A DNA stretch of 12,294 nucleotides from Hyphomicrobiales bacterium. Lineage in GTDB: Bacteria > Pseudomonadota > Alphaproteobacteria > Rhizobiales > Xanthobacteraceae. Location of the stretch: contig PKXB01000146.1 of NCBI GenBank assembly GCA_003133345.1, forward strand, positions 9,398 through 21,691. Reading direction: 5' to 3'. The translations under genes were made by a program, and so were the position numbers. How positions within the stretch are numbered: position 1 is the first letter of the stretch; each line of letters starts with the position of its first letter. The notes beneath the pieces were generated by a model, which was given only the letters and a program-made list of their open reading frames with translations, made no database searches and was not told the origin of the DNA. Below, one piece after another: positions 1 to 4,726 of this stretch.

Positions 1-2190
1 GGCATCGCCGTCGGCATGGCCACCAATATCCCGCCGCACAATCTGGGCGAACTGATCGACGCCTGCGTCGCGCTGATCGGCAATCCGGCGCTGAGCATCG
101 ACGATCTCAACGCCATCGTGACCGGGCCGGATTTTCCGACCGGCGGCATCATTCTCGGCAAGGCCGGCATCCGCAGCGCCTATCACAGCGGCCGTGGCTC
201 GATCGTGATGCGCGGCAAGGTCGCGTACGAGACCATCCGCAAGGAACGCGAGGCGATCGTCGTCACTGAGATTCCCTATCAGGTGAACAAGGCCAGTATG
301 GTCGAGCGCATCGCCGAGCTGGTGCGCGAGAAGAAAATCGACGGCATCGCCGACCTGCGCGACGAGAGCGACCGCGACGGTTATCGCGTGGTGATCGAGC
401 TCAAGCGCGACGCTGAGCGCGACGTCGTACTCAACCAGCTTTACCGCTTCACCCCGCTGCAATCCTCGTTCGGCGCCAATATGGTGGCGCTCGACGGCGG
501 CCGCCCGCTGCTGATGACGCTGAAGGATATGCTCGCAGCCTTCATCGCCTTCCGCGAGGAAGTGGTGTCGCGGCGTACCAAGCATCTGCTCGGCAAAGCG
601 CGCGACCGTGCCCATATCCTGGTCGGCCTCGCTATCGCGGTCGCCAATATCGACGAGGTGATCAAGCTGATCCGCGCCTCGAACGACGCCAACGAGGCGC
701 GCGAGGCTTTGATGGCGCGCGAATGGCCGGCGACCACGGCGGCCACGCTGATCGAATTGATCGACGATCCGCGCCACAAGGTGAGCGCCAAAGGCACCGC
801 GCGGCTGTCGGTCGAACAGGCGAAGGCGATCCTCGATCTGCGCCTGCAACGGCTCACTGCGTTAGGCCGCGACGAGATCAAGGCCGAGCTCGACAAGCTC
901 GCCAGCGAGATCGCCGACTCCCTGGAAATCCTGCGCTCGCGCGCGCGCATCCAGACCATCATCAAGGACGAGCTGGCGGCGCTGAAAGAGGAATTCGCCA
1001 CGCCGCGCCGCACCGTCATCGCCGAGGAAGAGGGCGAAGTCGAGGATGAGGACCTGATCCAGCGCGAGGACATGGTCGTGACCGTCTCGCATCTCGGCTA
1101 CATCAAGCGCGTGCCGCTTTCGACCTATCGCGCGCAGAAGCGCGGCGGCAAAGGCCGCGGCGGCATGCAGGTGCGCGAGGAGGACTTCGTCAGCCGGCTG
1201 TTCGTCGCCTCGACCCACACGCCGGTGCTGTTCTTCTCCTCGGCCGGCCAGGTCTACAAGGAAAAGGTCTGGCGGCTGCCGCTGGCGGCGCCGCAGGCGC
1301 GCGGCAAGGCGCTCATCAATATCCTGCCGCTCGATCAGGGCGAGACCATTACCACCATCATGCCGCTGCCCGAGGACGAGACGACCTGGGGCCAGCACGA
1401 CGTGGTGTTCGCCACCACCAAGGGCAATGTGCGGCGGAACAAGCTGTCGGATTTCGCGAAGATCAGGCCCTCCGGCATCATCGCCATGAAGCTCGACGAC
1501 GGCGACGCCATCGTTGACGTGCAGATTTGCACAGAGAAGGACGATGTGCTGCTGACGGCGGACGGCGGCCAGTGCATCCGCTTTGCGGTGCCGGAGGTGC
1601 GCGTATTCTCAGGGCGCACGTCCGACGGGGTGCGCGGCATCGCGCTCGGCAAGGACGACAAGGTGATTTCCATGTCGATCCTCGGCCATGTCGAGGTGAC
1701 CGCCGATGAACGCACTGCCTATCACAAGCGCGCCAGCGCCATCCGGCGCGGCGCCGGCGTTGAGCTGGAAGCCGCACCCGAGGAGGCAGCGGAGGCAGCG
1801 GAAGCGGCGGAAGCCGGCACCAACGGCGGGATCGAGCTCGGCGAGAAGCGTTATGTCGAATTGTCGGCGGCCGAGCAGTTCGTGCTCACGCTGTCGGAGC
1901 GCGGCTACGGCAAGCGCTCATCGTCGTATGAGTACCGCACCACCGGCCGCGGCGGCAAAGGCATCGTGGCGATGTCGCTTACCACCAAGACCGGCAAGAT
2001 CGTCGGCTCGTTCCCCGTCGAGGAGTCCGACCAGGTCATGCTGGTCACCGACGCTGGCAAGCTGATCCGCACTACGGTCGCCGGCATCCGCATCGCCGGG
2101 CGCTCGACGCAAGGCGTGATCGTGCTCAACACGCACGAGGACGAACGCGTGGTCTCGGTCGAGCGGTTGAGCGAGGACGAGGGGGAGTAG
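1..2190 (+). CDS. gyrA: DNA gyrase subunit A, 3' portion (5' end outside the window)
   Basis: Subunit A of the type II topoisomerase that puts negative supercoils into DNA in the cytoplasm. The reading frame is open from the first base, and the ATG at 16 is internal: the preceding codons read GIAVG and continue into [12 protein letters not shown], which matches E. coli GyrA from about residue 170. The catalytic tyrosine region is therefore outside the window. Visible are the rest of the breakage-reunion core, the coiled-coil region ending near [15 protein letters not shown], and the C-terminal DNA-wrapping beta-pinwheel. The pinwheel starts with a GyrA box (QKRGGKG, bases 1135-1155) and has further blades such as GVRGIALG and TQGVIVLN. 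Between late blades there is an insert of about 60 residues that includes an Ala/Glu-rich run. The protein ends soon after the last blade and lacks the long acidic tail of E. coli. 729 codons are visible before the TAG. The last 49 codons are duplicated downstream at 2546-2695. Confidence 0.98.
1783..1812 (+). repeat. In-frame 9-base tandem repeat in gyrA (Glu-Ala-Ala units)
   Basis: Codons run gag-gca-gcg, gag-gca-gcg, gaa-gcg-gcg, gaa: three units of Glu-Ala-Ala plus one Glu, the first two identical in sequence. The run lies in the insert of the C-terminal domain between pinwheel blades, where length change is likely to be tolerated. The unit is a multiple of three, so expansion or contraction would keep the frame. 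Confidence 0.8.
2039..2190 (+). repeat. Direct repeat, copy A: 3' end of gyrA
   Basis: The end of gyrA from the last two bases of a Met codon (2039) to the TAG (2190) recurs at 2544-2695 at a constant offset of 505 bases with no gap. Over 2041-2190 I count 14 mismatches in 150 positions. Seven are silent or in the stop codon. The others change six residues, three of them among the last six codons. Copy A is the tail joined to the intact gyrA frame. Confidence 0.95.
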
Positions 2191-2226
2191 TTCGTCGATC
2201 ACCCCGGCACGACAAGGAAATAGATT

Positions 2227-2541
2227 ATGACCACAAACCAATATCACGAGCCCGCCGATGAGTTGCCGACGGAGATTCGCACCTTCGCCCGCATGGTGAC
2301 TTCGCTCCAGGAAGAATGCGAGGCCATCGGCTGGTACGAGCAACGTATTGCGCTCGAGAAGAACAAGTCCGCCCGCGCCATCATGGCGAGTGCGCAAAAA
2401 GAAGAATTCAAGCATTTCGGAATGGCGCTGGAATTCCTGCTGCGCCAGAAAAAGGACTGGCGGGACATCCTCAAGGAGATTCTGTTCACGACCGGCGATA
2501 TCGTGAAAGCCGGCGGGAAGGCGGAAAAAGACGCCGACTAG
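2227..2541 (+). CDS. Small ferritin-like protein of the EncFtn (encapsulated ferritin) type, without cargo tag
   Basis: A 104-residue, mostly helical protein, probably an iron-oxidising ferritin-like protein of the encapsulated-ferritin family. Recalled alignment with Rhodospirillum rubrum EncFtn keeps the key positions at a constant offset of two: E30, E32, W36, Y37 in EECEAIGWYEQR and E60, H63 in KEEFKH, matching E32, E34, W38, Y39, E62 and H65 there. The family forms its di-iron site between two subunits, so each chain has only two helices and half a site, which fits the short length. The tail ends KAGGKAEKDAD and has no LGIGSLK-like encapsulin-targeting peptide, and no encapsulin gene is in the window, so a free-standing form is inferred. 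An AAGGA Shine-Dalgarno at 2214-2218, eight bases before the ATG, supports the start. It lies 36 bases after gyrA and four bases before the duplicated gyrA tail. Assignment by recall, not by search. Confidence 0.75.
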   Translation: MTTNQYHEPADELPTEIRTFARMVTSLQEECEAIGWYEQRIALEKNKSARAIMASAQKEEFKHFGMALEFLLRQKKDWRDILKEILFTTGDIVKAGGKAEKDAD

Positions 2542-2545
2542 TTTG

Positions 2546-2695
2546 CTGGTCACCGACGCCGGCAAGCTGATCCGCACGCCGGTCGCCGGCATCCGCATCG
2601 CCGGGCGCACGACGCAAGGCGTGATCGTGCTCAACACCGCCGAGGACGAACGCGTGGTGTCGGTCGAGCGGCTGAGCGGGGAAGACGGCGAGTAA
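2546..2695 (+). pseudogene. Detached second copy of the gyrA C-terminal tail (49 codons plus stop)
   Basis: Direct-repeat copy B. It reads [11 protein letters not shown] and so on to SGEDGE-stop (TAA) in a frame different from both gyrA and the ferritin-like gene, and is about 91% identical in bases and 43 of 49 residues to the tail of gyrA. It covers only the last pinwheel strands and cannot act as gyrase. Nothing upstream continues the gyrA frame: the ferritin-like stop is four bases before the homology begins. A TTG at 2543 could in theory start a 50-residue peptide, but I see no convincing ribosome binding site. The frame is still open and ends in its own stop, so the fragment is either recent or never decayed. 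Confidence 0.9.
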
Positions 2696-2799: not shown

Positions 2800-3021
2800 C
2801 TAATTGATGCGGTCGGTGGTGACCAGCCGGATGCGCGGGTTGCCGAAGGGCGTGCCGACGCAATTGAGATACGGCCAGGAGCGCTGCGTGCAGGCCTTCA
2901 AGGCGGTCTCGGCCGGCTTCGACAGCGGACCGGCATCGACCGGGGCGCTCGGCGCGGACAGCACGGTGACGGCGGCGGCGATGGTCGCGGCGAGCATGAC
3001 GGCGGTGGTAGTTTTCAGCAT
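2800..3021 (-). CDS. Small exported protein of unknown function
   Basis: 73 residues. Residues 1-30 look like a signal peptide: MLK, a hydrophobic Ala/Thr/Val stretch, and possible cleavage near VDAG. The mature part is only about 42 residues and carries two cysteines in [11 protein letters not shown], which could form a disulfide in the periplasm, followed by [17 protein letters not shown] good Shine-Dalgarno (AGGGGG, five bases before the ATG on the minus strand) supports the start at 3021. It is divergent from coaD across about 106 bases, so the two promoters must lie there. I have a vague memory of similar small proteins with a WPYLNCVGT motif in Bradyrhizobium relatives but know no function. 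Confidence 0.72.
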
Positions 3022-3127: not shown

Positions 3128-3625
3128 ATGCTGCGGACCGCCCTTTACGCCGGGTCATTCGACCCCGTCACCAACGGCCATCTCGACGTGGTGCGCCACG
3201 CCGTCCGGCTGGCCGACAGGCTGGTGCTGGCGGTCGGTGTCAATCCCGGCAAGGCGCCGCTGTTTTCCGCCGACGAGCGCTTAGGGATGCTCAAGGAGAT
3301 CTGCGCGCCGCTGGCGCGCGCGGCCAAGTGCGAACTGGACTACGTGACCTTTTCCGGCCTGGTGGTCGAGGCCGCGCGCAAGGCGGGAGCCACGATTCTG
3401 ATCCGCGGCCTGCGCGACAGCACCGATTTCAACTATGAAATGCAGATGGCGGGGATGAACGAGGCGATGGCGCCCGAAATGCAGAGCGTGTTCCTGCCGG
3501 CCTCGCCGCTGGCGCGCCCGATCACCGCCACATTGGTGCGTCAGATCGCCGGCATGGGCGGCGATGTCACCGCCTTCGTGCCGGCCGCCGTGGCGGCGCG
3601 GTTGAAACAGAAATTCTCGCGTTAG
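3128..3625 (+). CDS. coaD: Phosphopantetheine adenylyltransferase
   Basis: Transfers AMP from ATP to 4'-phosphopantetheine to give dephospho-CoA, the next-to-last step of coenzyme A synthesis, in the cytoplasm. 165 residues, usual for the family (about 160-170). The nucleotidyltransferase signature is at the N-terminus: [12 protein letters not shown], with the T/HxGH motif at residues 15-18. K42 (NPGKAP) and the [13 protein letters not shown] block at 92-104 bind substrate and phosphate. The motif near the C-terminus that usually reads ISSTLVR is ITATLVR here. The first ATG that gives the family N-terminus ([13 protein letters not shown]) is at 3128. The open frame extends upstream to 2804, but that part is antisense to the minus-strand gene and is not coding. 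The bases just before the ATG lack a clear Shine-Dalgarno. The stop is overlapped by a palindromic repeat. Confidence 0.97.
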
Positions 3626-3673
3626 CGCATGATCCCGAAAAGTGGGTACCGGTTTTCGGACAAGATCATGCGC
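3625..3673. repeat. Dispersed palindromic repeat overlapping the coaD stop
   Basis: A 49-base element with perfect 10-base ends, gcgcatgatc at 3625-3634 and gatcatgcgc at 3664-3673, and a second perfect stem, ccgaaaa (3635-3641) with ttttcgg (3653-3659), round the core gtgggtacc. The first base is the last base of the coaD TAG. I recognise this as a high-copy intergenic repeat of Bradyrhizobium-like genomes. A relative lies at 11286-11330. It could end coaD transcription or shield the mRNA end, but no T-run follows. It ends 27 bases before the next start codon. Confidence 0.88.
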
Positions 3674-3700
3674 CACGAAAAATCAAAATCGGGAGACTTC

Positions 3701-4246
3701 ATGATCCGTATTCTCGCTATCGTCGTCGCGCTTGTGTGCGCCGCGCCCGCCATCGCGCAAGTGTCCGATCCGCAGAACACCGTGCTGCTCGACACCACAA
3801 AAGGCCGCATCGTCATCAAGCTGCGCAACGACATCGCGCCCAAGCACGCCGAGCGCATCAAGCAGCTGGCGCGCGACGGCTTCTACAACAATGTGCCGTT
3901 CCACCGCGTGATCGCCGGCTTCATGGCGCAGACCGGCGATGGGCAGAACGGTGACGGCACCGGTGGCTCGAAATATCCGCAGCTCAAGGCCGAGTTTTCC
4001 AATGTGCCGTACACCCGCGGCGTGGTCGGCATGGCGCGCACCTCCGATCCGAATTCGGCCAATTCGCAATTTTTCATCATGTTTGCCGAGAATTCCGGCC
4101 TGAATGGCCAGTACACCGTGATCGGGCAGGTGATGTTCGGCATGGACGTGGTCGACAAACTCAAGAAGGGACCGGAATCCGCGAATGGCGCGGTCTCCGA
4201 TCCCGACAAGATTCTGAAGATGCAGGTCGCCGCCGACGCGAAGTGA
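3701..4246 (+). CDS. ppiA: Exported peptidyl-prolyl cis-trans isomerase (cyclophilin)
   Basis: Speeds the cis-trans change of peptide bonds before proline; probably acts on proteins folding in the periplasm. 181 residues. Residues 1-20 (MIRILAIVVALVCAAPAIAQ) form a clear signal peptide with an AIA-Q cleavage site. The cyclophilin fold follows: TTKGRIVIKL at 32-41, the catalytic block FHRVIAGFMAQTGD at 67-80 with the expected Arg69, Phe74, Met75 and Gln77, then NSQFFIMF near 121-128. The start at 3701 is chosen over the in-frame ATG at 3629 because a GGGAG at 3691-3695 sits five bases before it, the signal peptide starts exactly there, and 3629 lies inside the palindromic repeat. Next to it, 24 bases on, is a cytosolic paralogue, so the two look like a tandem pair in one operon. 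Confidence 0.95.
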   Translation: MIRILAIVVALVCAAPAIAQVSDPQNTVLLDTTKGRIVIKLRNDIAPKHAERIKQLARDGFYNNVPFHRVIAGFMAQTGDGQNGDGTGGSKYPQLKAEFSNVPYTRGVVGMARTSDPNSANSQFFIMFAENSGLNGQYTVIGQVMFGMDVVDKLKKGPESANGAVSDPDKILKMQVAADAK

Positions 4247-4270: not shown

Positions 4271-4726
4271 ATGGCCAAGCCGGAAGATACCCTCACGCTG
4301 GAAACCACCAAGGGCAAGGTGGTGATCGCCATGCGGCCCGACCTAGCGCCCGGCCACGTCGCGCGCATCAAGGAGCTGGTGAAAGAAGGCTTCTACGACG
4401 GCATCGTGTTCCACCGCGTGATCGACGGCTTCATGGCGCAGACCGGCTGCCCGCAGGGCACCGGCACCGGCGGCTCCGGCAAGAAGCTCAAGGCCGAGTT
4501 CAACAAGGAGCCGCACGTGCGCGGCACGGTGTCGATGGCGCGCGCGGCCAGCCCCGATTCCGGCGACAGCCAGTTCTTCATCTGCTTCGACGACGCCCAC
4601 TTCCTCGACAACCAGTACACCGCCTGGGGCAATGTGATCGAGGGCATGGAAAACGTCGACAAGATCAAGAAGGGCGAGCCGGTGAGCAACCCGGACAAGA
4701 TCGTCAAGGCGACGATGGGGGCGTGA
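4271..4726 (+). CDS. ppiB: Cytosolic peptidyl-prolyl cis-trans isomerase (cyclophilin)
   Basis: 151 residues with no signal peptide, so the cytoplasmic counterpart of the gene before it. Starts with TLTLETTKGKVVIAM. The catalytic block FHRVIDGFMAQTG at 47-59 has Arg49, Phe54, Met55 and Gln57, and SQFFICF at 100-106 is the second family block. The two cyclophilins are clearly related over their whole mature length. This one has a shorter loop after the catalytic block (CPQGTGTGGSG) and two cysteines, at 60 and 105. A CAGGA at 4258-4262, eight bases before the ATG, supports the start. It is probably co-transcribed with the exported cyclophilin (24-base gap) and is followed at once by a hairpin that may end the message. 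Confidence 0.96.
   Translation: MAKPEDTLTLETTKGKVVIAMRPDLAPGHVARIKELVKEGFYDGIVFHRVIDGFMAQTGCPQGTGTGGSGKKLKAEFNKEPHVRGTVSMARAASPDSGDSQFFICFDDAHFLDNQYTAWGNVIEGMENVDKIKKGEPVSNPDKIVKATMGA

Follow-up and report, generated by a model that had tools for sequence, protein, structure and literature searches.

The stretch of DNA analysed here (the window, 12,294 nucleotides) comes from a soil bacterium and is part of a draft genome of the genus Pseudolabrys, which comprises 238 contigs and is 83% complete. The window opens inside gyrA. The 3′ part of this gene, including the C-terminus and stop codon, occupies positions 1–2190 on the forward strand and carries the domains DNA_topoisoIV and DNA_gyraseA_C. 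Its best NCBIfam matches, TIGR01063 and NF004043, both fall short of their cut-offs, because the window truncates the frame. A spacer of 36 bases (2191–2226, forward strand), with AAGGA before the next start and a fold of only −4.1 kcal/mol (2187–2236), leads to a gene for a short ferritin-like protein of 104 amino acids (2227–2541, forward strand). Behind this gene stands a second gyrA end, here called tail B, which consists of 49 codons and a stop, preceded by a TTG codon at 2543 (2543–2695, forward strand; PF03989, E 1.3e-13). Tail B is followed by an imperfect palindrome predicted to fold into a strong hairpin (2696–2800; −53.9 kcal/mol), and then by a small gene of 73 amino acids on the reverse strand (2800–3021). 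The latter has no match in Pfam and NCBIfam searches; by tblastn, many relatives carry it in the interval from gyrA to coaD. The right flank is formed by a coaD-like gene (cytidylyltransferase-like, PF01467; 3128–3625, forward strand).

The final 49 codons and stop of gyrA itself (tail A, 2041–2190, forward strand) are repeated in tail B. A repeat search paired 2039–2189 with 2544–2694 (151 nt, spacing 505, 91% identity). When 2041–2190 is compared base by base with 2546–2695, 14 of the 150 positions differ, the last of them in the stop codon (TAG/TAA), and the identity extends two bases leftward of 2546, to 2544. After the gyrA stop at 2190 come 36 bases, a 104-codon open reading frame with its stop (2227–2541), four bases, and then position 2546. 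The sequence-only reading that preceded this analysis had described two tails at an offset of 505 with 136 of 150 bases identical, and only 36 bases and one small gene between gyrA and the second tail; both descriptions are confirmed base by base. Judged by the sequences, so many identical bases in register are not a product of chance. Tail B gives a frame of 50 residues from the TTG at 2543, one base behind the stop of the ferritin-like gene, and its stop-free open frame spans 62 residues.

The gene between the tails had also been called ferritin-like, and Pfam bears this out. Its product matches the EncFtn-like family PF22277 at E 1e-22 (80.1 bits, over the curated cut-off of 27) and the Rru_A0973 protein (5da5) at E 4.2e-15, while its score against TIGR04535, the encapsulin-associated ferritin model, is below the cut-off (80.8 bits; cut-off 125). 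The ferroxidase residues of Rru EncFtn, Glu32, Glu62, His65, and Tyr39 (PMC5012862), are kept as E30, E60, H63, and Y37, as read off the alignment. Encapsulin-associated ferritins are marked by a C-terminal targeting peptide with a Gly-Ser-Leu-Lys type motif (PMC5012862); none is apparent by eye at the C-terminus of this protein, which ends in KAGGKAEKDAD. The protein may oxidise Fe(II) without an encapsulin shell, and its gene, 36 bases behind gyrA, probably shares the gyrA transcript. In these respects it resembles the s-FLP class of encapsulated ferritins (such as Nitrosomonas europaea NE0167, 3k6c, which it also matches in sequence), which, according to PMC11202242, are likewise about 100 amino acids long and of the PF22277 type, with a ferroxidase set of Glu, Glu, and His plus Tyr and no apparent targeting peptide. 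It differs from the class as described there in its place behind gyrA and in its genomic company, as PF04454, the only encapsulin shell family searched, was found in none of 60 genomes (its own, 83% complete, and 59 relatives). The locus contributes a further EncFtn-like protein for which no shell partner is known, encoded at an unusual and probably steadily transcribed place.

The history of the EncFtn-like gene departs from that of the sister species, G018. Its product shares only 66% identity with the G018 protein and groups in a tree with metagenome proteins instead. EncFtn is present in 8 of the 43 genus genomes (own included, one a fragment), and in the others it does not adjoin gyrA. 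In a tree of 95 rows, the seven Pseudolabrys rows require six changes, at least three of which are forced by starred branches; L161 (= G027) and L095 (= G009) were not counted as outsiders.

The two-tail arrangement appears to be confined to this locus among the genomes searched. A stand-alone second gyrA tail occurs in none of the 42 other genus genomes (tail B found a match in 41 of them and none in G062), and the family-wide distribution that would have spoken against a transfer was not seen in them. The order gyrA, EncFtn, tail was likewise absent among the matches listed for 391 family genomes, own included, although absence there is less certain as two candidates were scored per genome. 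At 92 other EncFtn loci, examined with flanks of 1.5–6 kb (shorter at contig ends; some loci represent the same place twice), no gyrA tail was detected at E 0.001. None of these sets, that is, the genus, the family matches listed, and the 92 EncFtn loci, yielded a donor with EncFtn directly behind gyrA. Among the 40 matches listed, DNA similarity of this locus to other EncFtn loci stops by 2544, where tail B starts, and many of the gyrA matches listed begin at about 2528–2530, a hint of weak microhomology. As far as literature titles and abstract openings go, such a gyrA arrangement is undescribed (islands, truncated copies, Pseudolabrys).

To the right of tail B, the locus departs from its relatives in gene content. 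A LysE-type gene adjoins gyrA in 31 of 37 linked relatives and is missing here, as are the ankyrin and TctC genes. Relatives without the ferritin-like gene had been expected to show a single tail followed directly by the sequence seen after 2695; no such empty site was seen, and LysE, ankyrin, and/or TctC intervene in nearly all linked relatives. As tail B stands before the usual place of these three genes, their loss need not be the insertion event. The palindrome has four more partial copies (74–82%) elsewhere in the same genome, and a hairpin motif, chosen after this hairpin had been seen, follows gyrA in 5 of 37 relatives, against a background of 35 in 1900 windows.

Phylogenetic affinity changes along gyrA. 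Positions 1–1450 are sister to G018 (support 100/99). The 3′ third (1451–2190, forward strand) carries a different signal in trees and AU tests: for 1451–2187 the grouping with G018 is rejected (AU p 0.0039), at a cut picked after a sliding comparison. With G018 left out, this part prefers G009 (87/87); G022 is rejected (p 0.007), and G060 together with G028 strongly so. The end of tail A, unlike this preference, resembles G060 and G028, so that no single donor sequence fits both the 3′ third and tail A. A comparison of nine further near pairs showed that G009/G032 gives up most of its excess similarity in the gyrA 3′ third and that three lose some, and G018 itself switches partner there. The switch near 1450 may consequently be unrelated, or may lie in G018. 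The switch point predicted within gyrA is thus present but not specific to this genome. As a pointer to the donor, the 3′ third rejects the sister species yet offers no clean candidate, and because it is mosaic in other species too, donor and direction are not proven.

The tails themselves give a weaker signal. Forcing tail B to join G018 costs 0.4 lnL and tail A 8.4 lnL; tail A joins G060 and G028 at no cost, and tail B at a cost of 10.7 lnL. Tail B therefore leans towards G018 and tail A away from it, without significance, none of the five tail tests giving p < 0.05. At 147 bases, the tail trees are too short to decide donor or direction. The right flank goes with the sister species, both in the coaD-like gene (sister to G018, support 97) and in a marker some 14 kb rightward (with G018, support 100).

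Stand-alone tail proteins of 49–50 residues recur in other contigs. Tail B has two rare changes, a Ser→Thr found in none of 42 relatives and a Glu→Gly base found in one of 42, and both are present in the stand-alone proteins P0001 (8 members, 9 contigs) and P0002 (3 members, 1 contig). P0019 (14 members) is of the A type and equals tail A from residue 3 on, while P0015 and P0021 have unusual substitutions. An EncFtn nearly identical to the one described here, P0121, occurs in 6 contigs; among the proteins listed, no stand-alone tail was shown to share a contig with an EncFtn protein.

The explanation that we favour, with somewhat better than even confidence, is that one-sided homologous recombination at gyrA imported the EncFtn-like gene together with a gyrA 3′ end and displaced the old tail. 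The incoming DNA would have consisted of tail A, perhaps with up to about 600 preceding gyrA bases, and the EncFtn-like gene. Its gyrA part would have recombined by homology with the resident gyrA, and its far end, just past the EncFtn stop, would have been attached about 150 bases ahead of the stop of the resident gyrA, at a point lacking real homology. A linear fragment could have entered in this way through homology-facilitated illegitimate recombination, or a small circle carrying a truncated gyrA end could have done so through a single crossover. Either route would leave gyrA intact, followed after 36 bases by EncFtn, with the old tail B as a remnant ahead of the old downstream hairpin. 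Both the one-sidedness of the homology and the direction, in which A arrived and B stayed, are inferred. The sequence-only reading had likewise proposed an incoming gyrA end with a ferritin-like gene; its outline stands, with partial support. The lack of a second tail in the 42 genus genomes, the distance of EncFtn from that of G018, the gyrA switch, the affinity of coaD, and the hairpin behind tail B all support that proposal; it is weakened by the failure to find a donor, by the lack of specificity of the gyrA switch, by tail sisterhood, which is not rejected, and by the 73-amino-acid gene.

Several observations run against this explanation. The missing LysE, ankyrin, and TctC genes need an extra step, and the A-type stand-alone tail P0019 does not follow from a single event. 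To the left of gyrA, a marker falls with G060 (support 97), and the 73-amino-acid gene groups weakly with G028, G060, and G022 rather than G018 (85/80, bootstrap not settled).

A possible but clearly less probable alternative is a local duplication within one lineage, after which the copies diverged, tail B under relaxed constraint. It could have arisen from a tail-EncFtn tandem whose second EncFtn was lost, or from a 505-base circle of the same lineage re-entering. Separate trees of the two tails and the gyrA body, which had been suggested as a check, placed the body with G018 and did not reject a sister relationship of the tails (AU p 0.52 and 0.6); the sister tree even scores 1.6 and 2.8 lnL above the free tree. 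The two rare changes of tail B, the match of P0019 to tail A, and the unusual substitutions of P0015 and P0021, as expected from drift, also agree with a duplication. However, the divergence between the two tails equals that seen when gyrA tails are compared between species of the genus, and no second EncFtn or fragment lies behind tail B within the window. Nor is tail B plainly a decayed copy: at the 13 differing sites, the 42 relatives agree with tail B at a mean of 6.4 and with tail A at a mean of 4.7. Decay of tail B without constraint was considered on its own, and the two unusual changes are not decisive.

The reverse direction is unlikely. Here, gyrA and EncFtn would be resident, and tail B, the hairpin, and the 73-amino-acid gene would have arrived from the right-hand side in place of the LysE/ankyrin stretch. 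The native gyrA body, the absence of the LysE and ankyrin genes, and the nearness of the 73-amino-acid gene to G028 and G060 fit this scenario. The tree of that gene is weak, however, and with coaD, about 100 bases further on, being sister to G018, the foreign piece would have to be short. Furthermore, EncFtn stands directly behind gyrA in no other genome searched (for the family, among the matches listed).

It is less probable again that the 505-base tail-EncFtn unit is an integrase-free mobile cassette. If it were, the flanking gyrA tails would let host recombination excise a circle with one tail, which could reinsert behind any gyrA, making the end of an essential and ubiquitous gene a universal attachment site; the A- and B-type stand-alone tails in other contigs would then be footprints of traffic between strains. 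A chimera of assembly or binning, with pieces of two genomes joined at gyrA, is conceivable for so fragmented and incomplete a draft but very improbable: no shared repeat of at least 20 bases was reported for the EncFtn/gyrA joint, and the occurrence elsewhere of tail-B-type proteins (P0001, P0002) and of the near-identical EncFtn P0121 argues against assembly error. That tail B works as a peptide of 50 residues (one GyrA blade), translated along with EncFtn and starting at the TTG, hardly deserves credence, since its open 50 codons, the closeness of the TTG to the EncFtn stop, and the recurrence of stand-alone tails are offset by changes at nearly fixed positions in tail B, P0015, and P0021, which point to relaxed constraint, by the lack of a clear ribosome site by eye, and by the fact that no single GyrA blade is known to act alone.

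Recombination at gyrA, the favoured explanation, is a known kind of event, of which this locus is most likely a neat example rather than a new system. It offers a compact natural case of how one gene can be acquired behind an essential gene, with that gene unbroken and no visible mobile element. It also suggests a searchable scar, namely a diverged second copy of a gene's final codons behind one foreign gene.

Some genomic islands rebuild the 3′ end of the gene they enter and leave the old end at the far side. The target would likewise have been kept whole here by an incoming 3′ end, but the likeness to such islands that had been drawn fails on the key feature, the integrase. By open reading frames and Pfam, the EncFtn-like gene is alone between the tails, without a site-specific recombinase; there is one cargo gene, and the two tails share 91% of their 150 bases.

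Closer parallels are found in one-sided homology. According to PMC3240628, homology-facilitated illegitimate recombination is known from Streptococcus pneumoniae, Acinetobacter baylyi, and Pseudomonas stutzeri, and in one test of Escherichia coli conjugation most clones had gene-end duplications of 109–950 bp, which arose by single crossover of a truncated circle. In both processes, foreign DNA enters through one-sided homology, as proposed here, and the E. coli crossovers likewise leave a gene-end duplicate behind the insert (150 bp here). Homology-facilitated illegitimate recombination proper is accompanied by deletion of the target; here, the missing LysE, ankyrin, and TctC genes may reflect such a deletion or a separate event. 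The present case also differs from both in that it is natural, concerns an essential gene, has tails 9% apart, and is deduced from sequence. T6SS effector and Rhs loci (PMC5361080) offer a similar anatomy, as an incoming module anchors in the conserved upstream part and displaces old 3′ ends downstream as orphans. In those loci the modules consist of toxin and immunity genes, whereas here the tail is the conserved terminus of a housekeeping gene, and the cargo encodes a ferritin-like protein.

The final 49 codons and stop of gyrA (tail A, 2041-2190, with the stop at 2190) recur at an offset of 505 bases (tail B, 2546-2695), and 14 of the 150 bases differ between the two copies. The sequence-only reading had described a gyrA tail repeat flanking a ferritin-like gene, and this is correct. 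The tails are separated by a 36-base spacer, a 104-codon gene (2227-2541), and four further bases. Tail B is in a different frame from this gene, and a TTG at 2543 is a possible start. It is followed on its 3' side by an imperfect palindrome (2696-2800; fold -53.9 kcal/mol), which has four more partial copies (74-82%) elsewhere in its own genome, a Pseudolabrys draft of 238 contigs that is 83% complete. Beyond the palindrome are a small gene on the reverse strand (2800-3021) and then a coaD-like gene. Directly 3' of coaD, at 3618-3689, a palindrome roughly 60 bases long has 41 matches in the same genome, itself counted (40 candidates scored), and copies of 88-100% identity in many Pseudolabrys genomes. 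The adjoining genes at 3629-4246 and 4271-4726 are 71% alike over 181 bases and are, judged by eye, presumably peptidyl-prolyl isomerase-like.

The protein encoded at 2227-2541 scores 80 bits against the Pfam EncFtn-like family (cut-off 27) and matches 11 solved encapsulated-ferritin sequences, the best being 5da5 (Rru_A0973). The Rru EncFtn is described as having di-iron ligands Glu32, Glu62, and His65, plus Tyr39 (PMC5012862), and the equivalents in the 5da5 alignment (E30, E60, H63, and Y37) are kept. The protein scores below the cut-off of TIGR04535, the encapsulin-associated model, and has no apparent targeting peptide at its C-terminal end. A search for encapsulin (PF04454) across 60 genomes, its own included, found none. 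A review names short proteins of this type s-FLPs, states that they were initially classified as non-encapsulated, and does not decide the matter (PMC11202242). Together, these features suggest that the protein is probably a short EncFtn-like enzyme with predicted ferroxidase activity that functions without a shell, at least without one of the PF04454 type.

The region downstream of gyrA was compared in relatives, as the sequence-only reading had proposed. Forty gyrA/coaD stretches were used, plus eight more (seven of the same kind), and wherever the end of gyrA was covered (36 stretches of the first set and 6 of the second) a single tail was present. Tail B matched 42 of 43 genus genomes (all except G062), and among these 43 a short open frame with a second tail occurred in the own genome alone. 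In three others (G003, G018, and G019) the additional matches were weak (40-45%) and inside the same gyrA, and the additional match in G001 was in a long frame on a different contig. Some part of the tail-EncFtn-tail stretch was matched by 373 of 391 family genomes, with two candidates scored each, and among the matches listed the tail and EncFtn parts occurred together only in the own genome. Its locus is also the only one with a gyrA tail beside EncFtn among 93 EncFtn loci (some being one place fetched twice; flanks of 1.5-6 kb, less at contig ends).

A single contig carries both gyrA and coaD in 37 relatives (36 from the genus; G054 from the order only), and in these the interval between the two genes ranges from 771 to 8,787 bases (loci L044-L083 and L184-L189) and carries, by Pfam name, LysE-type genes in 31, ankyrin genes in 26, and TctC genes in 9. 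The window's interval has 938 bases and none of the three. Given this range of sizes and gene contents, the interval varies among relatives, and the version in the window looks like a derived one. The region behind gyrA is a minor hot spot where genes turn over.

EncFtn occurs in 8 of the 43 genus genomes, the own genome counted (G066 has a fragment at a contig end). In a tree of 95 proteins (104 columns, with many forks lacking resolution), 6 changes are required to account for the seven Pseudolabrys rows, and starred branches force at least three of these. As few changes were needed in 87 of 500 shuffles, so these rows are hardly clustered. The window EncFtn groups with metagenome proteins P0122-P0126 (support 96 for the six), away from the sister species G018, and separate acquisition of EncFtn is favoured. 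EncFtn-like proteins 61-78% identical to the window's (L092-L171) come from Bacteroidota, Verrucomicrobiota, Gemmatimonadota, Actinomycetota, and Alphaproteobacteria, and interleave on the tree.

Over gyrA 1-1450, the window joins G018 (supports 100/99), as it does in coaD (97) and in a marker some 14 kb further right (100); a marker left of gyrA joins G060 (97). For gyrA 1451-2187, grouping with G018 is rejected (23.7 lnL, AU p 0.0039, an optimistic value since the cut at 1450 was set after a sliding comparison). Replacement of gyrA's 3' third by a piece that ends at EncFtn would be expected to leave this pattern. Several cautions apply to the switch near 1450. Excess similarity between the window and G018 falls from 7.6 to 2.6 points in the 3' part; among nine other near pairs, it is mostly lost in G009/G032 (6.4 to 1.3), partly lost in G011/G064 (5.0 to 3.2), G025/G063 (6.8 to 5.4), and G031/G065 (10.9 to 9.4), and gained in five. 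G018 itself groups with G003 and G020 in 1451-2187, so the switch may have happened in G018 rather than in the window. With G018 left out, this part of the window gyrA favours G009 (87/87), and groupings with G022 (p 0.007) and with G060 + G028 are rejected; consequently, no donor stands out. A further caution is that the 73-residue gene on the right side of tail B tends weakly towards G028/G060/G022 (85/80). The gyrA 3' third looks mosaic across the genus, with the window, G018, G009, and G064 changing partners, which could mislead typing based on gyrA.

Placing tail B with G018 costs 0.4 lnL, and with G060/G028 10.7; tail A has the opposite pattern (8.4 with G018, no cost with G060/G028). 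The tail trees therefore lean towards an incoming tail A, as had been claimed, although in these tail-only tests no p reaches 0.05 and sisterhood of the two tails is not rejected. The favoured direction is that tail A came and tail B stayed.

A protein search with tail B (50 residues), limited by design to proteins roughly 28-88 residues long, had 197 matches (120 of them listed), and one with P0019 had 150 (120 listed). Most of the 31 tail proteins inspected start at gyrA's Met there or are longer pieces, so most may simply be the ends of normal gyrA genes whose frame is broken or whose contig stops there. Tail B's two unusual changes, Ser to Thr and Glu to Gly (the bases for which occur in 0 and 1 of 42 relatives, respectively), are both present in P0001 (50 residues, 8 members, 9 contigs, the longest of 6,036 bases) and P0002 (58 residues). 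P0019, with 50 residues and 14 members, is identical to tail A from residue 3 onward, and P0015 and P0021 are alike with 49 residues. The first codon of P0001 and P0019 is that of tail B, read as Leu; this could reflect a TTG start left unconverted or a frame open at its end. At a position near the beginning where gyrA has Leu, P0001, P0015, P0019, and P0021 carry Val or a start codon. P0121 is an EncFtn nearly identical to the window's (18 members, 6 contigs). A one-off assembly error as the source of the arrangement is unlikely, since P0001 and P0002, with tail B's changes, and P0121 occur in other contigs. A bolder reading, that the tail-flanked unit is a cassette moving by host recombination, is improbable.

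Recombination that brought in a gyrA end with EncFtn is, in outline, the best available explanation, with moderate confidence. A circle carrying a truncated gene end would, through one crossover, yield a whole gene, the insert, and a truncated end. Alternatively, homology-facilitated illegitimate recombination (HFIR) of a linear fragment would have the same outcome, provided that the fragment's free end was joined within gyrA. After such recombination, EncFtn would probably ride on the gyrA transcript, as the 36-base spacer is short, lacks a strong hairpin, and has AAGGA ahead of the start codon.

The arrangement is a good example, from nature, of a kind of event already known. Of 60 Lac- clones obtained by E. 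coli conjugation, 56 are reported to give a product diagnostic of gene-end duplication, and 14 sequenced clones confirmed such duplications, of 109-950 bp (PMC3240628). These single-crossover duplications have the same layout as gyrA, EncFtn, and tail B. For T6SS effector modules, HFIR has been proposed, with old 3' parts moved downstream, and the same source cites a like displacement at Rhs loci (PMC5361080).
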